Assembly: GCA_947643715.1 (NCBI GenBank)
Contig: CANRXB010000005.1
Span: 1 to 64,000 of the forward strand
Source: an uncultured bacterium
GTDB taxonomy: Bacteria > Bacillota > Clostridia > Oscillospirales > Oscillospiraceae
Reading direction: 5' to 3'
Length of the DNA: 64,000 nucleotides
Each line of letters begins with the position of its first letter. Within the stretch, counting starts at the first letter, position 1. Of the stretch, positions 4,406 to 23,485 are shown one piece after another. The position numbers and the translations under genes were made by a program. Below the pieces are notes generated by a model. It was not told the origin of the DNA. It saw nothing but the letters and a program-made list of their open reading frames with translations, and made no database searches.

Positions 4406-4524
4406 TCTAAGCAAGCCAGCACATACCACATGCGATCCCTGATGCAGTGGATTCTCATACACATTTTTAATAGTCATGTGTCCTTGACAAAGGCTTTTGG
4501 GACATATATCTTTATAGAAGATGG

Positions 4525-4920
4525 ATGGGATTTTGTTCCACAGAAGGATGCCATGGAGACACAGAGAAAATGCGGGATCACTGCCTCGGACATCGACGCC
4601 ATGACCGGCGAGGAGCTGCTGGAGCTGGCAAAAGCACAGGGGACAGTATGTGGGCCAGAGGCTGCCAACGCAGGAGGCGGAAGGGGTCTATTCCCCGGTG
4701 CTGGACGCTCCCCGCTTTTTGCGCCGGTCCTACTAGGCGCACCCTAAGAAGTTTTCTCAAATGCTTGAAAAGCTGCGTTACCTGGACGCCGCCCACTGGG
4801 GCGCCGTCGCGCTCTCGCAAGGGCTTGAACTCCAGGATTTGACCGTTCTGGAGCGTCAGTTTCCCTCTACGCCGGCTCGCTGGGAGGAAAAGACCATGCA
4901 GGGTCCCAAAGGCCCTGGAC
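4525..4920 (+). pseudogene. Frameshifted remnant(s)
   Basis: TASDIDAMTGEELLELAKAQ in one frame, QEAEGVYSPVLDAPRFLRRSY and MLEKLRYLDAAHWGAVALSQGLELQDLTVLERQFPSTPARWEEK in others. Confidence 0.45.
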
Positions 4921-4926
4921 GATGAC

Positions 4927-5517
4927 TTGGAATACTCCTCTTCCCTGGATCTTGCACTTCTGTTGGAGGTACGCGACGCGGCCCGGCGGCTTTTGGCAGG
5001 TCAATACCCGCAATACTATTTCCAGAAAACCAGGTGCGACCAACCGATGTCTGGGTGGGCCTGGCGGCAACCACAGAGCTGGATTAAGAAGCAGTTTGCC
5101 TTGTGGAAGAAGCGCAGGAAAGCTGCGGGCGAAAAGCCGCTGATCCGCCAACTGTCCATCCAGGCCCAGCCTCCGGCCTTTGAGGATGTCGGGGGCCGGA
5201 ACACGAAGCAGAGCACCATCTACACAGTAGCCGGGAAATGGGGGCTGGACATGGGCGACCTGTCTGTCCACCGTCGGGCGGATCTGCTGGACCCCATCCA
5301 TGGCTATGGGGCGCGGGTCACCTTCGACCACGTCAACAACGGCCCGGAGTACAATAACGACATCGTGATGCTCCACGGCGCTGCTGGTTACCGCCTGGGC
5401 GGGATGCCCTTCGGGGACTACCTGACCCAGCGTGCCATTGTCGCGCCGGAGGAGCTTCTGGCCCGGTTCGCGTCCATGGCCGGGGCGGCTTTCAAGCAGA
5501 TGGCGGGCTTGAGATAG
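4927..5517 (+). CDS. Hypothetical protein
   Basis: 196-aa ORF; may be the downstream part of the preceding disrupted gene. Confidence 0.45.
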   Translation: MEYSSSLDLALLLEVRDAARRLLAGQYPQYYFQKTRCDQPMSGWAWRQPQSWIKKQFALWKKRRKAAGEKPLIRQLSIQAQPPAFEDVGGRNTKQSTIYTVAGKWGLDMGDLSVHRRADLLDPIHGYGARVTFDHVNNGPEYNNDIVMLHGAAGYRLGGMPFGDYLTQRAIVAPEELLARFASMAGAAFKQMAGLR

Positions 5518-5597: not shown

Positions 5598-6953
5598 ATG
5601 ACTCGAAAAAAGTGTATCGCGCTCCTTTTCGTGATGACTGCGCTGCTTGGAATGGCGCTGTCCGGGTGCGGCGTGATCGAGTTCCAGATGGACAAATGGG
5701 AGATGCGGCAGAATGCGTCGAAGCTGGCGCTGGCCTATGCCAACGAGACCTATGGCGGCAGGGCCAAGGTGGTAAAGGTCGAGGTGGGTGTGAACGTGGC
5801 GGTGTTCCGCGGCTATTTGAGCGGCGACGCCCTGGTCACCCTGGCCCTGGACGGGGAGGAGTTTCAGGTCTATGTGGTGGGGGACTCCTGCAGGGACAAC
5901 CGGGACGGCCTGGCGCTGGTCAAGGTGCTGGACGAGTACTTCCGAGGGCTCTACGGCCTGCCCCCTGCGCTGGAGTACGACATCAACGTCTACTTTGAGC
6001 GCAAGGGATTCTTCGCGTCCCATCCGTCGGAGCTCGGGTATGAGTATAATTTCCTGGATTTCGACTATCACGGCCAGCCGCTGGAGGAGGTCCTGCCGCT
6101 GCTGGACAGCATCCACTTTGACTACCGGTATTATGTGGACGGCGGCGTCAGCCTGGACGGGATCGAGTTCCGGGCGGAGGACTGGGGCGGCGACCTGGAG
6201 CGCCTGGGAAGGGTATGGATCAGCTGTTTCCGCTGCTACGACGAGGACAGTGAAGTCCCACTGGGCATACAGTTGGTCAAGGGCCGGCCGGTCCTGATGG
6301 CGGAGGGGATGGAGTTTTCCCATAGTGAGCTCCAATACGCGGATCTGGACAAGATCGCCTATGATATCCCCTATCTCTCCCTGCGGGAGAGGCTGAGGTT
6401 TTCAGGCAGAGAGATCAGCCGGGAGCGCTATACCGTCACCCGCATGGGGAACTTCTGGGTCAGCACCCAGGAGGGCTGGGATGCGGGGGAGTGCTTTGAA
6501 CTGCGGCCCTGCGAGCCGGACTGGGCAGATCCTATTGATCTGTTGTCTGAACCCTACGGGGTGTTCTACACCAAAGAGGAACTGGAGGGCGATACGGAGA
6601 TGGACATCATCACCAGAAAGGCTCTGCTGCCCTTTGTGGACGCCCGGTTCGAGACGGTAGGAGAGAAGCTGTGCCTGCGGGACGGCGTGGCGGAACGTAT
6701 CCAGGATTGGGGAAAGCCGTACAGCTCGGCCCCGGGCCCGGTCCAGGTGACGGTCATCCCCTCCCTGATCTACAAGTCTGACGCGCAGATGGCCATGGGC
6801 AAGATCCGGGAGGAGGAGGACGGGCCCCATCATGCTGCTAAGCTCTTTACATACTATCTGGACAATAAGAGCTACTGGATGAACGGACTTTCGTCTCTAT
6901 CGTTTTCTGCTTCCTATCACAATGAGCTTGTCCTGCTGCGTGTCATGGAGTAG
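5598..6953 (+). CDS. Putative lipoprotein, unknown function
   Basis: MTRKKCIALLFVMTALLGMALSGCG lipobox; 451 aa. Confidence 0.75.
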   Translation: MTRKKCIALLFVMTALLGMALSGCGVIEFQMDKWEMRQNASKLALAYANETYGGRAKVVKVEVGVNVAVFRGYLSGDALVTLALDGEEFQVYVVGDSCRDNRDGLALVKVLDEYFRGLYGLPPALEYDINVYFERKGFFASHPSELGYEYNFLDFDYHGQPLEEVLPLLDSIHFDYRYYVDGGVSLDGIEFRAEDWGGDLERLGRVWISCFRCYDEDSEVPLGIQLVKGRPVLMAEGMEFSHSELQYADLDKIAYDIPYLSLRERLRFSGREISRERYTVTRMGNFWVSTQEGWDAGECFELRPCEPDWADPIDLLSEPYGVFYTKEELEGDTEMDIITRKALLPFVDARFETVGEKLCLRDGVAERIQDWGKPYSSAPGPVQVTVIPSLIYKSDAQMAMGKIREEEDGPHHAAKLFTYYLDNKSYWMNGLSSLSFSASYHNELVLLRVME

Positions 6954-6981
6954 ATGCGGCAGGAGGATCGGAGGGCTATCG

Positions 6982-7188
6982 ATGGGACTGGGCTATTTCT
7001 TTATCTTTCTCACCATATTGGGCGCGGGAGCGCTGGCGGCCGTCCTGCTGAAGGCAGCGTGGAAGCTCTGGAACAGCCCAAAGTGGAGGGCCCTGGCGGT
7101 GCTGCCGTTCCTGCTGGCGCTGCCCTGCGCGTTTGCCGCCATCTACTTCATGGTGGTGATCTTGCGGGAGGGCTTTTATTCTTTCTGA
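6982..7188 (+). CDS. Small two-helix membrane protein
   Basis: MGLGYFFIFLTILGAGALAAVLLKAAWKLW...ALAVLPFLLALPCAFAAIYFMVVIL. Confidence 0.6.
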   Translation: MGLGYFFIFLTILGAGALAAVLLKAAWKLWNSPKWRALAVLPFLLALPCAFAAIYFMVVILREGFYSF

Positions 7189-7218
7189 AGGCTGCCGAAG
7201 CATATCGGTGAGGAGGCC

Positions 7219-8382
7219 ATGCCAATGAGAGGCGTAAAACGGATCGCGCATATGTTGGCCGCAGCGATAGGGCTGGCGGTACTGCTCCTGCTGTCCGGCT
7301 GCAACGAGGGACCCTGGCTGTTCACCACCGAGCAGGCCCGGGAGCATTTGGAGGACCGGTATCCCGGGGAAGAGATCGAGATGCGGGCCGACGGTCTGAA
7401 CACCTGGCTGTGCTGGTTCAAGGATCTGCCAGAAGCCAAATTCCGGGTGGAGATGGTGACCCGGGGCGGCGACCCGGTGCCGTACTACCATAACAGGCTG
7501 GACTCCAACGCCCCGGACGCGGTGTGGACCTACTACCTGGACACCTACCGGGAGGAGGGCGGCTGCCTGGACGCTTGGGAGATCGGCAAAGCGAAATGGG
7601 CCGACGAGACCTGTATGGAGCTGGAGTATACCTCCATGGCCCAGGTGCGGGAGGCGGCGGAGCAGCTGTGGGCCTTCTACGGCTGGACGGAGGGCAGGCC
7701 CTACAGGGAGTTTTTGGCCAAGGGACGGTATTACTATATTTTTTCCGGCGCGCTCCCCTGGCAGACCAGCCTGTCGGAGAAGATCGATGTATGCACCCAG
7801 GGCCCGGAGGATAGTTTGGACGATGTGCTCGACCAGTGTGCCGGGGCGCTGATGGAGTATCACGCCTTTTACAACCTGCCCTGTGACGATTTCACGGCGG
7901 AGGAGTTGGCCGAGTTCGCCCGGGAGCGCTGGGACTGGGTGACCATGTCCGGCTGTCCTGAGGTGCGGGACGGGGAGGAACGACTCCCGGGGGAGCTGTT
8001 CGCGGGGATCGGCGCGGACCATCTGCACATCAGCTATGGCGGGCTGTATGAGCTGCTGGTCCGGCTGGACATGGCGGTGGAGGGCACGCCGGAGCACTTT
8101 TGGGTCACGGGCGCGGACGGCGCGGGATACGAATTCTCCTATGACTTCCACCGCGAGGCGCATTCCAAAGAGGATGAGACCCATATCATCTGGTATTTCC
8201 TGCGGAACGGGTACATGGTGGACACCTCCCATGAGTCCGCCTGGTATCTCAGTTGGTGGGATTATGGGCCGCTTCTGAGGCTGGATATGGGCCAGCACTA
8301 TCAGATCGACGAGAACCATTTCAGGTGGGATACCATCCCGGAGCTGATCACAGGGCTGAGTTTCAGGAGAAGCGCCCCATGA
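7219..8382 (+). CDS. Putative lipoprotein, unknown function
   Basis: IAHMLAAAIGLAVLLLLSGCNEG lipobox; 387 aa. Confidence 0.75.
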   Translation: MPMRGVKRIAHMLAAAIGLAVLLLLSGCNEGPWLFTTEQAREHLEDRYPGEEIEMRADGLNTWLCWFKDLPEAKFRVEMVTRGGDPVPYYHNRLDSNAPDAVWTYYLDTYREEGGCLDAWEIGKAKWADETCMELEYTSMAQVREAAEQLWAFYGWTEGRPYREFLAKGRYYYIFSGALPWQTSLSEKIDVCTQGPEDSLDDVLDQCAGALMEYHAFYNLPCDDFTAEELAEFARERWDWVTMSGCPEVRDGEERLPGELFAGIGADHLHISYGGLYELLVRLDMAVEGTPEHFWVTGADGAGYEFSYDFHREAHSKEDETHIIWYFLRNGYMVDTSHESAWYLSWWDYGPLLRLDMGQHYQIDENHFRWDTIPELITGLSFRRSAP

Positions 8383-8561
8383 AGGAGTCCCCGTTTTGGA
8401 AGTTCTTTTTTGCCGGTCTGACGGGCTTTGTGGTGTTGGTCCTCTGTTTGGCCTGCCTGGAGGGGGAGCTGGCTGCGGATTGCTTCGATGAGATGTTTTG
8501 GGGCGGCGGGCAGGAGGACGATGTAGAAGACGCGCCGGACGGCGGTGAAGAGGAGCAGTAA
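8379..8561 (+). CDS. Small membrane-anchored protein with acidic tail
   Basis: MKESPFWKFFFAGLTGFVVLVLCLACLEG...GGGQEDDVEDAPDGGEEEQ; overlaps upstream stop. Confidence 0.5.
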   Translation: MKESPFWKFFFAGLTGFVVLVLCLACLEGELAADCFDEMFWGGGQEDDVEDAPDGGEEEQ

Positions 8562-8694
8562 AACGGAGCTGTATCAAGATGAAGGCTGACCAGAACGCCA
8601 TGAAGTTCATGATCGTTCAGCATATAGCGGATATATCCCGGGAAAACAACGGGTGGAAAGTGGTGCGCAGTCTGCGGCAAAAAACGGAGGGATG

Positions 8695-11600
8695 ATGATG
8701 GTCGATCATTGGAGCATTTTAGGGCTGGAGGAGCCCACCCAGGACGTGTCCTCCATTCGGCGGGCCTACGCCGTGAAGACGCGGGAATGCCACCCGGAGG
8801 AGGACCCGGAGGGCTTCCTGCGCCTGCGGGAAGCTTACCAGGCGGCGCTGGCCTATGCGGAGCGGGGCGCCTGCCCTCCGCCCCCGGCCCCGGCGGCGTC
8901 CGCCGGGGAGGAGGACTGGGGACCGGACGTGGACGGGGAAGCGGAGCGGCCGGGGTTCCAGGGCTGGGTCATCCCCGAGCAGGAGCCGGAGGACAGGCCC
9001 GACCCCTATGCGGACAGCGAGGCTATCCGGAAGTTTGAGGAACTGTATACCAAGAAGCAGCGCAAAGACCCAAAGCTGTGGATGGACTACTTCACCTCGA
9101 ATATCTTCCTGGATGTGGCCTGGGAGCCGGAGTTCACCCAGCTCATGCTGGAGAAGGTGACGCAGGTGGAGCGGGAGCTTCCCCCGGGGAAGGAGTTCCT
9201 GACCTGGCTGTATATCGCCTACCAGTTCTCGGCGGTGGAAAAGTCGGTGCTGGACCGGGAGGCTATGCGGGTGGAAAAGTACCCGCGGGAGGTGACGCTG
9301 GGGCCGGGGGCGGACTTCGAGGGTATGGAGTCCATCCTCCGCATCGCGGCCAAGGGTGCCATCCCCAAAGCGCCCCGGGGCAACGAGTTCGCCATCGGCC
9401 AGAGCTTTGCCGATCACAGGCACCTGGCCCGTCTGGCAAAAGGCGGCGCGTGGAGTGAGCAGGCGGTGACGGAATTCAAATACGTCGTACGCCGCTATGT
9501 GTCTGCCTACATCAAGGAGCGCTGTGAACAGCGGGTGGCGTCCGACCTGGAGCGGCACCCCGCCGGACTGCGGGTGTTCACCCATTTCTTCAAGGCCTAC
9601 CAGATTCCGGAGGAGCTGTACCGCCATGTGTGGCAGGACCTGGGGCTGAAGATGGCCATCATGGGCCGGGCCAAGGTGCTGTACGGCGATCTGCGGGAGA
9701 TCGTGGCGGAGCGGGTGCCCGGCATCGATGGGGAGATCCAGGAGAACTTTTTGCAGCTCAACCGGGCGCTGGACAGCTATCTGGCCCGGATCAAGGGAGC
9801 GCCGGAGCGGGAAGAGGAGGAGTCCGCCGCGTTCTTCGCCCGGGAAGACCTGCAAAAGGCCCTGCGCAGCCCCCGGTTCATTGAGAAAGAGCTGCTCACC
9901 TACTCCAAGTGGCGGCGGGACGAGATCGGCTCGGGGCTTTTGAGACGCATCCTGGACTTCTACCGGGCGCATCCCGAGGTCTCGGGGGCGGACCGCGTGG
10001 TGGAGGAGGTCGGAAAGGACTTGGACAGGCGGGCCGTCAAGCTGCGGGATGAAGAGGACGCCAAGGCGGAGGGAGTGGCCTATTATGAGCGGCTGACACT
10101 GGCCTACCGGCCCTTCTTCCGGCATTGGCTGAACACAGCGTGGTTTGATGGCGTGGATCTGGACGGCGGGACCTACCTGCTGGATCATCTGAGGGAGCGT
10201 CTGCCTTACCAGGTGGAATGGAGCCGGCGTTTTCTGCAAAAAGAGGATGGGACCATCCGCTCCCGGACGGTTGCGGCCTGTATGGGCGAGGTGGAGGTGG
10301 ACTTCCACCTGCGGCATATGGAGTTCCGGGTGAAGGGCAGCCCGGTCTACCGTCCCTGTTTGGCCTGGGAACAGACGGTGATCGAGGGTGGTGACTGGTT
10401 TTTCTATCTGCTGCCTATCACTGCGGCTTCCTATGAGCAGTACGACGAGGTACATATGGAGATCCTGCGCCGTCTGCCCATCACAGCCGCGCCGGAGGAG
10501 GATCGGGGGCTGATATCGGAATGCCTGGCCTGCGCCGTATGCAGCCTGCCCCTGGACGAGTATACGGGAAAAGCCATCCCACCGGAAGAAGCCCTGCCGC
10601 TGAAGCGTTATGTGGAGGACAGGGATCGGCTGTACGGGTGCGTGTGGAGGGAGGAAAACCGGCTGGTGACCCTGTTCGAGCAGACTACCGACGGGCAGCG
10701 GGTGCGGAGGAGGTACGAGCTGGCAGCCGGTGAAGACGCTGCGGAGGCGGCCCAGCGGCTGCTGCGCGAGGCGGTGAGCCACAGCGATTTTGATCTGCAC
10801 CTGATGAAAGGTCTGCCCCTTGAAGTGTATGTCTTGCCGCCTGACGGGCCGGAATATGTGCTGAAGCAAGAGGGCGTCCGGGAAATGGAGGCGGAAATGG
10901 ATCTGCACTGGCCGGAGCTCGACCGGGGGGAACTGGTCACGATGGAGGCCCTGATGGAACTGCTTGCCTGGTTCGAAAAGGGGGAGTTGCGGCGGCTGGA
11001 GCTGCACTGGTGTGAGGGAAGCCTGGTGTTTTGCCGGTGGAGCGTGGGATATGCCTGTTTCTATTTTGAACAGTCGCTGACCCATCATACCTGGTATGCC
11101 ATGCTGTCCAAGCCGGAGGTCTACCGGGTGGTGGAGAGCGATGATGTGGTCTATGTGCCCTTCGGCATGGGAACGCTGCCGGACTATGTCATCCACGACA
11201 GCCCGGCCTCCATTCTGAAAAACCTGGACCGGGTGTTCTGGCAGCTTTGCCAGGGGCGGCCCCAGGCCCAGGGGGCGGGCGGCTGGCTGTGGGACTCCAA
11301 CACGAGCCAGATGAACGGAGAACACAAGCGGCACATGGCCCAGCAGAAGGTGGGCGGGTTCCCGCCCCACCGGGGTCGGAACCGTCTGGCGGCCAGGTTT
11401 GTCATGAACAAGTACCCGGTGGAGCTGGAGCAGGTGGGGCTGGACGGCGAGCGGACGATGACAGCCATCAAGAGCGGCAGCTATGGCCGGGCCGCCGACG
11501 CGCTTTCTCAGTTTATGAAGGAAAAATTGGGCAGACTGCGGCTGAGCTGGGAGTTCAAAACGCCGGAGGGCGGGGCGTTCCGGCGGCACCTGGTACTGCT

Positions 11601-11889
11601 GCAGGATGATGGCCGGTTCATGATGGCCTGGCTTCAGGACGATAAGGATCGGGCGCAGTATCATATCGCGGAACGGTCCGGGGAGGATGACGGCACGGAT
11701 GTCTTTCTGGGCCGATCGGTTCCGGCGCGACTGGTGCACCATGATTTGAAGGGGATCCGCAACTGTGTGGATCTGATCCTGGACGATATGGACAATACCG
11801 ATCCTGTGACGGAACGGCCGGAGGGATTTGAGACGGCGCAGGAGCCCTATGAGGCCGTCTGGGCGGATCTGGTGGACGGCGGGGAGTGA
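8695..11889 (+). CDS. Large J-domain-like protein (HPE instead of HPD)
   Basis: N-terminal DHWSILGLEEPTQDVSSIRRAYAVKTRECHPEEDPEGFLRLREAYQAAL; about 1060 aa; start near the MMMVDHW cluster. Confidence 0.72.
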   Translation: MMVDHWSILGLEEPTQDVSSIRRAYAVKTRECHPEEDPEGFLRLREAYQAALAYAERGACPPPPAPAASAGEEDWGPDVDGEAERPGFQGWVIPEQEPEDRPDPYADSEAIRKFEELYTKKQRKDPKLWMDYFTSNIFLDVAWEPEFTQLMLEKVTQVERELPPGKEFLTWLYIAYQFSAVEKSVLDREAMRVEKYPREVTLGPGADFEGMESILRIAAKGAIPKAPRGNEFAIGQSFADHRHLARLAKGGAWSEQAVTEFKYVVRRYVSAYIKERCEQRVASDLERHPAGLRVFTHFFKAYQIPEELYRHVWQDLGLKMAIMGRAKVLYGDLREIVAERVPGIDGEIQENFLQLNRALDSYLARIKGAPEREEEESAAFFAREDLQKALRSPRFIEKELLTYSKWRRDEIGSGLLRRILDFYRAHPEVSGADRVVEEVGKDLDRRAVKLRDEEDAKAEGVAYYERLTLAYRPFFRHWLNTAWFDGVDLDGGTYLLDHLRERLPYQVEWSRRFLQKEDGTIRSRTVAACMGEVEVDFHLRHMEFRVKGSPVYRPCLAWEQTVIEGGDWFFYLLPITAASYEQYDEVHMEILRRLPITAAPEEDRGLISECLACAVCSLPLDEYTGKAIPPEEALPLKRYVEDRDRLYGCVWREENRLVTLFEQTTDGQRVRRRYELAAGEDAAEAAQRLLREAVSHSDFDLHLMKGLPLEVYVLPPDGPEYVLKQEGVREMEAEMDLHWPELDRGELVTMEALMELLAWFEKGELRRLELHWCEGSLVFCRWSVGYACFYFEQSLTHHTWYAMLSKPEVYRVVESDDVVYVPFGMGTLPDYVIHDSPASILKNLDRVFWQLCQGRPQAQGAGGWLWDSNTSQMNGEHKRHMAQQKVGGFPPHRGRNRLAARFVMNKYPVELEQVGLDGERTMTAIKSGSYGRAADALSQFMKEKLGRLRLSWEFKTPEGGAFRRHLVLLQDDGRFMMAWLQDDKDRAQYHIAERSGEDDGTDVFLGRSVPARLVHHDLKGIRNCVDLILDDMDNTDPVTERPEGFETAQEPYEAVWADLVDGGE

Positions 11890-11900
11890 GCATGAGGGAA

Positions 11901-11935
11901 AAGGAGGCCCGCACGCATCGCGTGTGGGCCTCCTT
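11901..11935. terminator. Bidirectional terminator between convergent genes
   Basis: AAGGAGGCCCGCACGC-atc-GCGTGTGGGCCTCCTT. Confidence 0.75.
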
Positions 11936-11937
11936 GG

Positions 11938-12846
11938 TCATTCGTAGATGGAGTCGATGATCTGTTTCAGCTCGTCCATAGTGATGTCGCCGATGATGGA
12001 TCCCTCCACAGGGCCGTTGACCCAGAGGGCGATGGGCCGTCCGGCGTTGGTGGACAGCAAATGGGTGATACCGCCCGCCTCATAAGGGATGGGATCCCCT
12101 TCGTCCTTCTGAAAATCGCCGTAGCCCCCGTTGCCCCCATCGTCCCGGGTAAGGAAAATATGAAGGTTTATGAGGAGGACAGTGTCGTTCCCATGGTAAC
12201 AGGACACAAAGACCAGTGAGTTTGGATCGCTGGTGTCCACGATCAGTTCTATCAGTTCCAAGCCCTCCGGCACCCAGTTAGGGGCGACGGGCAGGGTCAG
12301 ACCACAGTCGTCCAGTGCATCCTGGAGGCTGGCGTATTCCGTGCCCTCCTCGGGTATGCGTATTTCATCTGGGTCTATCCGGGTGACTTGGCCCGGAGCG
12401 ATGCTGATCACCTCGTCCGTCCACCGGGCCAGCAGCTCCCACAGGCCACGTCCGGAGGCGGCCACCGCCACGGAGACGGACAGCAGCAGGAGGGCCAGCG
12501 CTGCGGCGGCCAGCATCCCGCGCACGCTCCATTTTCGGAAATGGGATCGACGCCGACCTAGGTCAGCGTATGAGGACGGTACCGCACCGTCCTCATAACG
12601 GGCGCTGTGGGCTTCAGCGAAAGGGAGGTATTTCTCCTGGAAATCCGCCCAGGCCCGGTCTGCGGAAACGTTAGAGTCAGGGGTCCGCTCCGCCAGAAGC
12701 TGGGCGGCATAGTAGAGCTGTTCCATACGGTCCTCGCTGCTCTCCGGGTCCTGGAAGTCCTGGAGAAGCAGTTTCTCAAGCCCCGCCGTACTCATCCGCT
12801 CCAGGTCGGCGGGCTTTAGATGCTCCCATCGTTCCGATTTTCCCAT
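11938..12846 (-). CDS. Anti-sigma-like membrane protein with DUF4367-type C-terminus
   Basis: Cytosolic N-part, one TM (GMLAAAALALLLLSVSVAVAA), extracellular domain ending in GRPIALWVNGPVEGSIIGDITMDELKQIIDSIYE; next to sigma factor gene. Confidence 0.75.
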   Translation of the reverse strand: MGKSERWEHLKPADLERMSTAGLEKLLLQDFQDPESSEDRMEQLYYAAQLLAERTPDSNVSADRAWADFQEKYLPFAEAHSARYEDGAVPSSYADLGRRRSHFRKWSVRGMLAAAALALLLLSVSVAVAASGRGLWELLARWTDEVISIAPGQVTRIDPDEIRIPEEGTEYASLQDALDDCGLTLPVAPNWVPEGLELIELIVDTSDPNSLVFVSCYHGNDTVLLINLHIFLTRDDGGNGGYGDFQKDEGDPIPYEAGGITHLLSTNAGRPIALWVNGPVEGSIIGDITMDELKQIIDSIYE

Positions 12847-12873: not shown

Positions 12874-13503
12874 TCAAACCTTCAGCTTCTTTTGCAGCCG
12901 CTTTCGGGCCCGCTGTACCCGCTTTTTACAGGCTTCCGCAGAGATGCCCAGGTCCTGGGCCAGCTCTGCCATGGTACACTGTTCTAAGGCGATTCGTTTG
13001 AGGAGGCGGAAGTCTTCGCTGTCCGATACGTTGCCGAACAGCACGTCCACGTCCAGCAGCTCGGGGCCCTCCATGGGCTGCTCCTCACCGGCGGTCAGGA
13101 AGAGCAGATGCTGAAGCTTCCTCTGGGTTCGGAGCATGTTCTGCATCACGTGCTTCAGGGTCATCATGATCCAGCCCCTGGGCTTGGGGTTGGACAGGAC
13201 CTGCTCCCGCTTGGCGCAGGCGATGCAGAAAGCGTCCTGGATGGCCTCCTCCGCCAGAGCGTGGTTCTTCAAGATCCGCAGGGCGTAGGCGTAGAGGGTC
13301 GGATACATCTCCTGATACATTTGTTCCAAATCTGACTGCCACGGTTCGCTGGAGCCCACCCGATCACCTCCTGCCTGGGGTCGGCACGGACGCCTCCCCC
13401 AAGAAAGTATCCCCGAAAAAGCCGCAGGTCGATCCCCGTGGCTCTTTCGGCATTCCACTTTATATAAATGCAATGTCAGAACCGGGATGGTTGGGGACAG
13501 CAT
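12874..13503 (-). CDS. ECF-type RNA polymerase sigma-70 factor (start likely internal)
   Basis: MYPTLYAYALRILKNHALAEEAIQDAF...PRGWIMMTLKHVMQNMLR...CTMAELAQDLGISAEACKKRVQRARKRLQKKLK. Confidence 0.85.
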   Translation of the reverse strand: MLSPTIPVLTLHLYKVECRKSHGDRPAAFSGILSWGRRPCRPQAGGDRVGSSEPWQSDLEQMYQEMYPTLYAYALRILKNHALAEEAIQDAFCIACAKREQVLSNPKPRGWIMMTLKHVMQNMLRTQRKLQHLLFLTAGEEQPMEGPELLDVDVLFGNVSDSEDFRLLKRIALEQCTMAELAQDLGISAEACKKRVQRARKRLQKKLKV

Positions 13504-13528
13504 AATAGGCGGATGGGCGAGAAATATT

Positions 13529-13864
13529 TTAGAAATCGAAATATGGAAGCGATCTATATCCTGTGGGGATGCCTGTATCCGACTCGGTCCAGCCCAAGTT
13601 CAGAACGAGGATAGACTTTTGCTCTGGGGATTTGTATGTGTTGAGATAGTCGATGAGATCCCTTTGCGTGTAACAGACCGATCCGTTCTTTCTGTATTTT
13701 GCGGCATCAGGACTGTTCCAAAGCCATCTACAGCAAAACTCGGAGCAGTATTCTTCTGATCGATCTGCGACGACATCCGGAACGGAATATATGATGCTGT
13801 CCCCATCCGCGCTCAGTATGAGGATCAGCAGAAAGGCGGCGATGAGGGACAGCGTTCGTTTCAT
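13529..13864 (-). CDS. Hypothetical secreted protein
   Basis: MKRTLSLIAAFLLILILSADG signal-like start. Confidence 0.4.
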   Translation of the reverse strand: MKRTLSLIAAFLLILILSADGDSIIYSVPDVVADRSEEYCSEFCCRWLWNSPDAAKYRKNGSVCYTQRDLIDYLNTYKSPEQKSILVLNLGWTESDTGIPTGYRSLPYFDF

Positions 13865-20780: not shown

Positions 20781-21242
20781 ATGGAAGATTTTCTTTTTGA
20801 GATTGCGCATCCTGCTGCAACGGGACCGGAAATCGCTGTGCTGGAAAACCGATTCCATTTTCATATGCCTAGGGATATCCGCCAGTTTTACCTGAAGCAC
20901 AATGGGGTGATATTTCTTCCCAACGCTCGATCAAATCCAGAGAATTGTGAGTTGCGGTATTTTTATTCAGTTGGGCGGCAGTTTGAGGATCATATCCCGA
21001 CCATCGATCAACTGCTAGGATGGCAAGCAAAAGATCGACTGATCCCAATGTACTATATCCCATTCTGTTCGGACGAGGCAGGCGACAGCTATTATGTTCG
21101 TGTGGATGAAGAGGGATACGGAGAGATCTATTACTTTGTAGATTTCCTTGATGATCCGAACGTTGAGGGAGCGGGGCTGATTGCTGAGAGCTTTACAGAT
21201 TTTTTAGCGCAAATAGAGGTTCCGACCCCAAAGGGGCGATGA
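20781..21242 (+). CDS. SMI1/KNR4 (SUKH) family protein
   Basis: EIAVLENRFHFHMPRDIRQFYLKHNGV...GDSYYVRVDEEGYGEIYYFVDFLDDP...AESFTDFLAQI. Confidence 0.82.
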   Translation: MEDFLFEIAHPAATGPEIAVLENRFHFHMPRDIRQFYLKHNGVIFLPNARSNPENCELRYFYSVGRQFEDHIPTIDQLLGWQAKDRLIPMYYIPFCSDEAGDSYYVRVDEEGYGEIYYFVDFLDDPNVEGAGLIAESFTDFLAQIEVPTPKGR

Positions 21243-22306: not shown

Positions 22307-23485
22307 ATGGCGGAAAAGCGCAAGGACAACAAAGGAAGGGTTTTGAAGGACGGAGAGAGTCAGCGGAAAAATGGCAGCTATGAATACCGCTATTTCGACA
22401 TACGGAAGAAGCGTCATAGCGTGTATGCAAGATCGTTGGCTGAGCTGAGGGAAAAGGAGCGTGATATTCAGCGTGATATCGATGACGGGATCGACTATGC
22501 GGCGGGAAGGATCACAGTCCTTGAACTTGTGGAACGGTATCTTTCACAAAAACGTCCAGAAAAACATAACACAGCGGTAAACTACAATTTTGTAAAAAAT
22601 TTGCTGAAAAAAGAGGAGTTCTGCAGCCGAAAGATCTATACTGTGAAGTCATCTGATGGGAAAGCCTTTTTTTTGAAGCTGCATGATGATGGGTATTCAT
22701 TTTCGACGATCCATACGATCCGCAGTGTGTTGAAGCCGGCATTTGAATTAGCGGCAGAAGATGATGCAGTGAGAAGAAACCCATTTGCTTTTGCTCTGAA
22801 TGGTGTCATATCTAATGATCCTGAAAAAAGAAAAGCACTTTCAGCAGAAGAAAAGAAGCGGTTACTTACGTTTTTAGAGAATGATGAGTGCGGGCGAAAG
22901 TATTACGATGTCGTTGTGATCCTGCTGGGCACTGGTCTACGCATCTCAGAATTGTGCGGCCTCACGAAAGCCGATGTCGATTTTGAAGCTGGGCGGATCC
23001 AGGTGAACAAGCAATTGCTGCGCGGAAGGATGTCTGGCGTTAGCCGCTTGATACTCGAAACGCCAAAGTCAGAGTGCGGTGTGAGGTATATCCCGATGCT
23101 GGACAGTGCGGTGATCGAGGCGTTCTATCATGTCATACAGGCAAGGCGGTCGCCAAAGGTCGAACATATTGTGGGCGGTCATTCTGAGTTCCTTTTTTTG
23201 GACAAAAACGGAACGCCGAAAACAGCCGTCGCTTTTGAACACGCTCTGTCCCGCCTTATGAGAAAATATAATCGACTCCATGATGATGTGTTGAACGTGA
23301 CGCCTCATATACTACGGCATACATTTTGTACGGAGCTGATCTCGGCAGGGATGGAGATCTCTTCTGTGTCATACCTCATGGGCCACTCAAATGCGTCCAC
23401 GACCCTTGGCGTATACACACATGGGCGATATGAGACAGCAGAAAAAGCGTTTGCAGGCATAGTCGAGAGGAGAGCCTTTTCCTAG
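22307..23485 (+). CDS. Tn916-type tyrosine recombinase/integrase
   Basis: N-terminal KDNKGRVLKDGESQRKNGSYEYRY arm-binding-like domain; catalytic GTGLRISE, HILRHTFCT, LMGHSNASTTLGVYTH. Confidence 0.95.
   Translation: MAEKRKDNKGRVLKDGESQRKNGSYEYRYFDIRKKRHSVYARSLAELREKERDIQRDIDDGIDYAAGRITVLELVERYLSQKRPEKHNTAVNYNFVKNLLKKEEFCSRKIYTVKSSDGKAFFLKLHDDGYSFSTIHTIRSVLKPAFELAAEDDAVRRNPFAFALNGVISNDPEKRKALSAEEKKRLLTFLENDECGRKYYDVVVILLGTGLRISELCGLTKADVDFEAGRIQVNKQLLRGRMSGVSRLILETPKSECGVRYIPMLDSAVIEAFYHVIQARRSPKVEHIVGGHSEFLFLDKNGTPKTAVAFEHALSRLMRKYNRLHDDVLNVTPHILRHTFCTELISAGMEISSVSYLMGHSNASTTLGVYTHGRYETAEKAFAGIVERRAFS

Follow-up and report, generated by a model that had tools for sequence, protein, structure and literature searches.

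A lipoprotein and giant J-protein gene run of an uncultured Oscillospiraceae bacterium is probably a deleted copy of an HscC-type chaperone operon

The draft genome of an uncultured bacterium of the family Oscillospiraceae (GCA_947643715.1; G000, 2.6 Mb in 93 contigs) contains a run of five closely packed genes that raises the question of whether it represents an envelope system of its own or a part of another genetic unit. The DNA stretch analysed here, referred to as the window, comprises 64,000 nucleotides of contig CANRXB010000005.1 (C5). An original prediction from the sequence had described five tightly spaced same-strand genes as a candidate for an uncharacterised envelope system, and all five open reading frames are indeed present on the forward strand at positions 5598-11889, with gaps of 28, 36, -4 and 136 bases. 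The locus was compared with the sister genomes G002, G014 (84% complete), G015, G047 and G049 of the same genus, and the search for orthologues took in 42 congeners. The dN/dS values, which are averages over whole orthologue pairs and not per branch, amounted to 0.18-0.26 for the lipoprotein genes and to 0.22-0.40 for the J-protein gene. Since these values are well below 1, the respective reading frames are considered as real genes under purifying selection in the compared pairs and not as chance open reading frames.

The first gene of the run (5598-6953) encodes lipoprotein 1 of 451 aa with the lipobox LSGC ending at C24, and the third gene (7225-8382) encodes lipoprotein 2 of 385 aa, likewise with LSGC. 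In both proteins the lipobox follows a single hydrophobic segment, so that lipidation is predicted. The two lipoproteins had been claimed to lack recognizable domains, and searches of Pfam, NCBIfam and PADLOC returned no known family for them or for the small membrane proteins of the run; a relationship of the two lipoproteins to each other was not detectable either. The only other copy of lipoprotein 1 among the 42 congeners is located in G047 (92% amino acid identity, pairwise dN/dS 0.18). Orthologues of lipoprotein 2 are encoded in G047, G049 and G014 (84-91% amino acid identity, pairwise dN/dS 0.18-0.26) and a pseudogene is present on contig C29 of the own genome, whereas a search of 394 genomes of the order yielded no copy beyond the genus; the gene is thus genus-restricted. 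Lipoprotein 2 is intact in G047 and in the incompletely sequenced G014, yet neither HscC nor the J protein was detected there, which suggests that it can do without the chaperone in these genomes. In both of them (G047:C10, L037; G014:C33, L039) the gene lies near a VWA-CoxE/SWIM/DUF4132 cluster and recombinases, in a genomic place different from that in the window, and G047:C10 additionally carries a lipoprotein 2 paralogue of 34% identity. The small TM protein 1 (6982-7188; 68 aa, two hydrophobic segments) separates the two lipoprotein genes. Its paralogue on contig C49 of the own genome (76% nucleotide and 60% amino acid identity) is situated between a promoter element and an HscC gene; in G047 the gene is deleted and in G014 a remnant is left.

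The last and largest gene of the run (8698-11889) encodes the giant J protein J1, for which a size of about 1060 aa with an N-terminal J-like domain had been announced. The best start is at 8698, with GGAGG directly before the ATG, and the deduced protein of 1063 aa contains no TM segment. J1 consists of a J domain with an HPE motif (residues ~1-57), a helical region (~105-460) and a beta-rich C-terminal region (~520-1060), as deduced from an AlphaFold model with a mean pLDDT of 56. The Pfam match to the DnaJ domain remained below the threshold (E 0.011), and searches of Pfam, NCBIfam, PADLOC and, with J1 only, the sequences of the PDB provided only weak J-domain matches. The J domain itself is 48-51% identical to those of E. 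coli DjlC/DjlB over ~54 aa and shares with them the motif HPE, which reads HPD in DnaJ. The models of lipoprotein 2 (mean pLDDT 53) and J1 are of low confidence, and a Foldseek comparison of the two with the PDB yielded no match at E<=0.001; the best hit (6anz, E 0.11) was left unused. J1 has a paralogue, J2, on contig C49, which is also devoid of a TM segment that could serve as a C-terminal membrane anchor. Its orthologues in G002 (87% amino acid identity, pairwise dN/dS 0.22) and G049 (71%, 0.40) both follow genes for HscC and a DUF4261 protein. A plasmid search with J1 detected Rahnella genes only; the one inspected adjoins an annotated HscC gene, and because its J motif is RPD, HPE is not universal among such neighbours of HscC. 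Viral contigs scanned with J1 and lipoprotein 2 contained no relative. A DUF4261 gene followed by a giant J relative of 750 aa without a J domain was observed in Lawsonibacter (L019, JAAVYL010000048.1, 4613-7842), with neither HscC nor the promoter element alongside. As this relative persists without a J domain, the C-terminal part of the giant J proteins possibly fulfils a separate function.

The original prediction of a small membrane protein behind each lipoprotein held for small TM protein 1 but not for its presumed counterpart behind lipoprotein 2. The putative small TM protein 2 (8379-8561; 60 aa, one hydrophobic segment) overlaps the lipoprotein 2 gene by 4 bases and is a chimera: residues 1 to ~33 are derived from a membrane protein designated X, and the remainder corresponds to the acidic C-terminal tail of a deleted HscC-type Hsp70. 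Positions 8379-8479 align with the beginning of the X gene of G049 and positions 8457-8546 with the HscC tail, and the overlap at 8457-8479 is a microhomology common to both, GAGCTGnCnGCGGA. Positions 8448-8546 of the window were also detected independently when the genus was searched with the full-length Hsp70 (residues 552-583, E 4e-5). As its halves align to the X start and the Hsp70 tail, small TM protein 2 is, judged by these alignments, an in-frame junction left by the deletion of the Hsp70 gene and no ancestral gene. Its candidacy as a true partner of lipoprotein 2 was dropped, as the halves map to two different genes.

Upstream of the run, a promoter element, P (4480-4523), was recognised by a sigma-70-type match, TTGACA-17 bp-TATCTT, within the conserved block CTTGACAAAGGCTTTTGGGACATATATCTTT (4483-4513). 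Transcription is likely to begin immediately behind positions 4484-4512, some 1.1 kb ahead of the lipoprotein 1 start. The intervening DNA (4525-5517) is occupied by a first gene decayed by frameshifts and stops. It is collinear with the region behind P in G049, which is just as broken, and gave no family match in Pfam and NCBIfam profile searches; the 196-aa reading frame at 4927-5517 is a fragment of this gene. When up to 3 mismatches were allowed, the block CTTGACAAAGGCTTTnnnGACATATATCTTT was found four times in the own genome, on C5, C49, C15 and C29 and nowhere else, each time ahead of an operon piece. G002, G049 and G047 each have a single copy, which likewise precedes this operon, and the reversed block, used as a control, gave 0 matches. 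The copies on C5 and C49 are free of mismatches, and those on C15 and C29 have 3 each. On C49, P is followed by the small TM protein 1 paralogue, the Hsp70 gene and J2, on C15 by a DUF4261 gene and on C29 by the lipoprotein 2 pseudogene. The last lipoprotein 1 codons (LLRVTG-stop) are retained on C49 before the small TM protein 1 gene, which precedes HscC and J2. From their composition, the four P loci are deduced to be products of duplication and reciprocal gene loss. The divergence between the small TM proteins 1 of C5 and C49 exceeds that of most between-species orthologues; the copies are therefore old, or one of them has been replaced.

The fullest form of the operon is present on contig C59 of G049, where P, the decayed first gene, lipoprotein 2, the membrane-anchored X, an HscC-type Hsp70, a DUF4261 protein, J1 and J2 follow each other in one run. 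The corresponding region of G002 (C20) has the order P-HscC-DUF4261-J1-J2 without lipoproteins. In G047, P, lipoprotein 1, lipoprotein 2 and the start of X are followed by two HscC fragments of ~50 bp and a J1 fragment of 32 bp; on comparison, this loss of HscC and J1 is regarded as independent of that in the window. G014 contains traces of lipoprotein 1 and small TM protein 1 before lipoprotein 2 and, directly after it, the sigma/anti-sigma gene pair which, in the window, comes after J1. The position of lipoprotein 1 and small TM protein 1 between P and lipoprotein 2 is given by the window, G047 and G014. Comparison of these sequences establishes the deduced ancestral order P - first gene - lipoprotein 1 - small TM protein 1 - lipoprotein 2 - X - Hsp70 - DUF4261 - J1 - J2, the complete form of which was found in no single genome examined; the joins from P to lipoprotein 2 are reproduced in independent assemblies. 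A conservation of the neighbourhood was thus confirmed in part (P-lipoprotein 1-lipoprotein 2 in G047, P to J2 with lipoprotein 2 and X in G049), with the run itself being an operon fragment. The DUF4261 protein of the operon comprises 319 aa with a full match to PF14080 (E 3e-22).

The Hsp70 of the operon groups with E. coli HscC, with a 100/100 split from DnaK/HscA in a tree of 12 proteins with long branches, which was rebuilt after removal of the mis-called antisense reading frame L079 from a first version. A review of the family states the missing GrpE-signature loop and an L1,2 insertion as features of HscC (PMC8215388). The GrpE-signature loop (DnaK ~290-295) is absent from the Hsp70, with the same 6-residue gap as in E. 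coli HscC, and present in the DnaK proteins of the genus. The alignment also revealed the L1,2 insertion of 4-8 residues in the substrate-binding domain (GVATYSYRGDKTPHMAV versus GIETMG------GVMT). A deletion in the nucleotide-binding domain at DnaK 76-101 is present in the Hsp70 but also in the DnaK proteins of this genus. With 586 aa in G049 and 582 aa in G002, the proteins are slightly longer than the 550-580 aa of HscC, and the pairwise dN/dS of the N-terminal part is 0.20. At the window locus, the gene is missing except for the tail at 8457-8546, and the sole HscC-type Hsp70 gene of the genome is located on C49. Relative to G002 and G049, this copy is frameshifted after about residue 500 (L007, ~13442-13540, reverse strand), which reduces it to 524 aa; most of the lid is lost, and the remaining lid sequence runs in another frame. 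The frameshift may reflect real decay or a sequence error.

Downstream of J1, a strong hairpin (11901-11935; -36.6 kcal/mol when folded with its flanks, z -6.6) is located between convergent genes. The hairpin bears out the predicted strong terminator in its fold, but it lacks a T-run on the forward strand and was not called by a terminator scan; on the reverse strand it is followed by TTTT, and it is probably a terminator shared by two convergent transcripts. The reverse-strand genes encode a DUF4367-like anti-sigma protein (11938-12846; one TM segment, weak Pfam match) and an ECF-type sigma factor paired with it (12874-13359; Sigma70_r2, E 1e-11). The anti-sigma gene, an ancestral downstream neighbour, occupies the same position in G014 and, in degenerate form, on C15; the sigma factor has an orthologue in G014 (pairwise dN/dS 0.13). 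Other ECF sigma/anti-sigma pairs lie beside operon copies in G000 (C49, 15708-17268) and G002 (C20, 6981-11688). A short reverse-strand reading frame at 13529-13864, starting MKRTLSLIAAFLLILILSA, resembles a remnant of a gene for a 577-aa DUF4352 lipoprotein that adjoins the locus in G047 and G014. Further along in the window, the island, which has ispF on one side and an aminotransferase gene on the other, contains a SUKH (SMI1/KNR4) immunity-type gene (20781-21242) and a Tn916-type integrase gene (22307-23485).

The question raised by the locus can hence be answered to the effect that the run represents an HscC-type Hsp70/J-protein operon copy that has suffered deletion, and an independent envelope system is not supported; a membrane connection appears plausible, a self-standing system does not, and the original prediction is, at the sequence level, supported in part. 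We favour, with somewhat better than even confidence, a model in which a single chaperone operon gave rise to four scattered pieces, each with deletions of its own, of which the run is one; J1 would serve the HscC of C49, and the lipoproteins would be envelope partners or clients. In this copy, the greater part of X and of the Hsp70 gene was lost by a deletion at short homology, which fused the membrane helix of X to the Hsp70 tail; DUF4261 is gone as well. According to the model, J1 would be a targeting factor in the cytosol and would use its HPE-type J domain to recruit and trigger the C49-encoded Hsp70, its large C-terminal part would select or bind the client, and the shared promoter P would keep J1 and HscC in step. 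The proposed pairing of J1 and HscC across the two loci is well motivated and their co-expression is presumed, while a client role of the lipoproteins, suggested by linkage, is a guess. Co-expressed lipoproteins 1 and 2 and small TM protein 1, together with X elsewhere, may be envelope-side partners, accessories or clients, and the whole might serve a purpose in membrane stress. More tentatively, and with considerable doubt, we envisage a membrane-spanning HscC machine in which each of two loci supplies one giant J protein of the HPE type and the pair directs the Hsp70 to both lipoproteins, X and small TM protein 1, so that the split operon would be held together only by its duplicated promoter.

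The favoured model has to be weighed against the intact lipoprotein 2 genes of G047 and G014 without HscC or J protein and the HscC-J genes of G002 without lipoproteins. The same distribution, together with the intact lipoprotein 1 of G047 and the pairwise dN/dS values of 0.18-0.23 for the G047 and G014 lipoprotein pairs, would fit an independent envelope module of the lipoproteins with small TM protein 1, whose shared transcript with the chaperone genes is historical and from which J1 now works separately. We consider this rather unlikely, as the connection with the HscC operon is preserved or can still be traced in G000, G047 and G049, and recent decay accounts equally well for the losses on both sides. 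The frameshifted HscC on C49, the absence of an anchor in J1 unlike in DjlB/DjlC and the draft state of the assembly in 93 contigs likewise count against the favoured model.

Decay and draft status would also fit a locus that is largely a dead relic or an assembly artefact without present function: the first gene is decayed, small TM protein 2 is a scar, the HscC gene on C49 is frameshifted, and the lipoprotein 2 copy on C29 is a pseudogene. However, lipoprotein 1, lipoprotein 2 and the 1063 codons of J1 are intact with pairwise dN/dS values well below 1, P is unmutated on C5 and C49 and eroded at the decayed C29 copy, and the recurrence of the joins from P to lipoprotein 2 in independent assemblies speaks against an artefact, which renders this explanation highly improbable. 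Somewhat less remote, although still improbable, is a fast-turnover array for interbacterial conflict, with the chaperone, DUF4261 and lipoprotein genes as immunity-type or defence genes. The genes are genus-restricted, duplicated and pseudogenised, a SUKH gene and an integrase gene share the island, a DUF4261 gene of G239 (L062) is surrounded by small immunity-like genes, and Sel1-repeat genes occur in the E. coli hscC region. On the other hand, PADLOC returned no match, a toxin gene was not recognised beside any copy, the viral contigs scanned carried no copy, and the core consists of an ATPase chaperone and its J protein.

The favoured descent from a chaperone operon ties the poorly understood HscC family to two lipoproteins, which are named here as candidate clients for testing, and places specific lipoprotein and membrane genes of a Gram-positive gut lineage behind one promoter, together with those for two giant J proteins and an Hsp70 of the HscC type. 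The locus also illustrates how duplication together with reciprocal gene loss can take an operon apart, and how a small 'new gene' that is a deletion scar can become an annotation trap. Leads on the role of HscC come from E. coli only, namely sensitivity to cadmium and UV and membrane-anchored J partners (PMC8215388), and no function was found in the literature for DUF4261 and DUF1266. Most other DUF4261 (PF14080) genes seen in Clostridia are not located beside HscC or a giant J protein.

The closest known counterpart is the E. coli HscC-DjlC-DjlB locus with its DUF1266 genes ybeU/ybeR. Both systems comprise an Hsp70 of the HscC class (36% identity to E. coli HscC) and two paralogous J proteins with HPE in place of HPD. 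Unlike DjlB and DjlC, the J proteins described here measure ~1060-1090 aa and are devoid of a membrane anchor; DUF4261 replaces DUF1266, the operon includes lipoprotein, small TM protein and X genes, and it is split over four loci in the own genome. The E. coli arrangement is encountered within the same genus in G015, where HscC (45% identical) is followed by a J protein of 567 aa with an adjoining HPE J domain and one TM segment and by DUF1266, whereas lipoproteins, DUF4261 and the P element are absent. Accordingly, what is new in the locus is not the chaperone class, which is known, but an operon variant that combines giant J proteins devoid of an anchor with DUF4261 and lineage-specific lipoproteins and that has a split layout.
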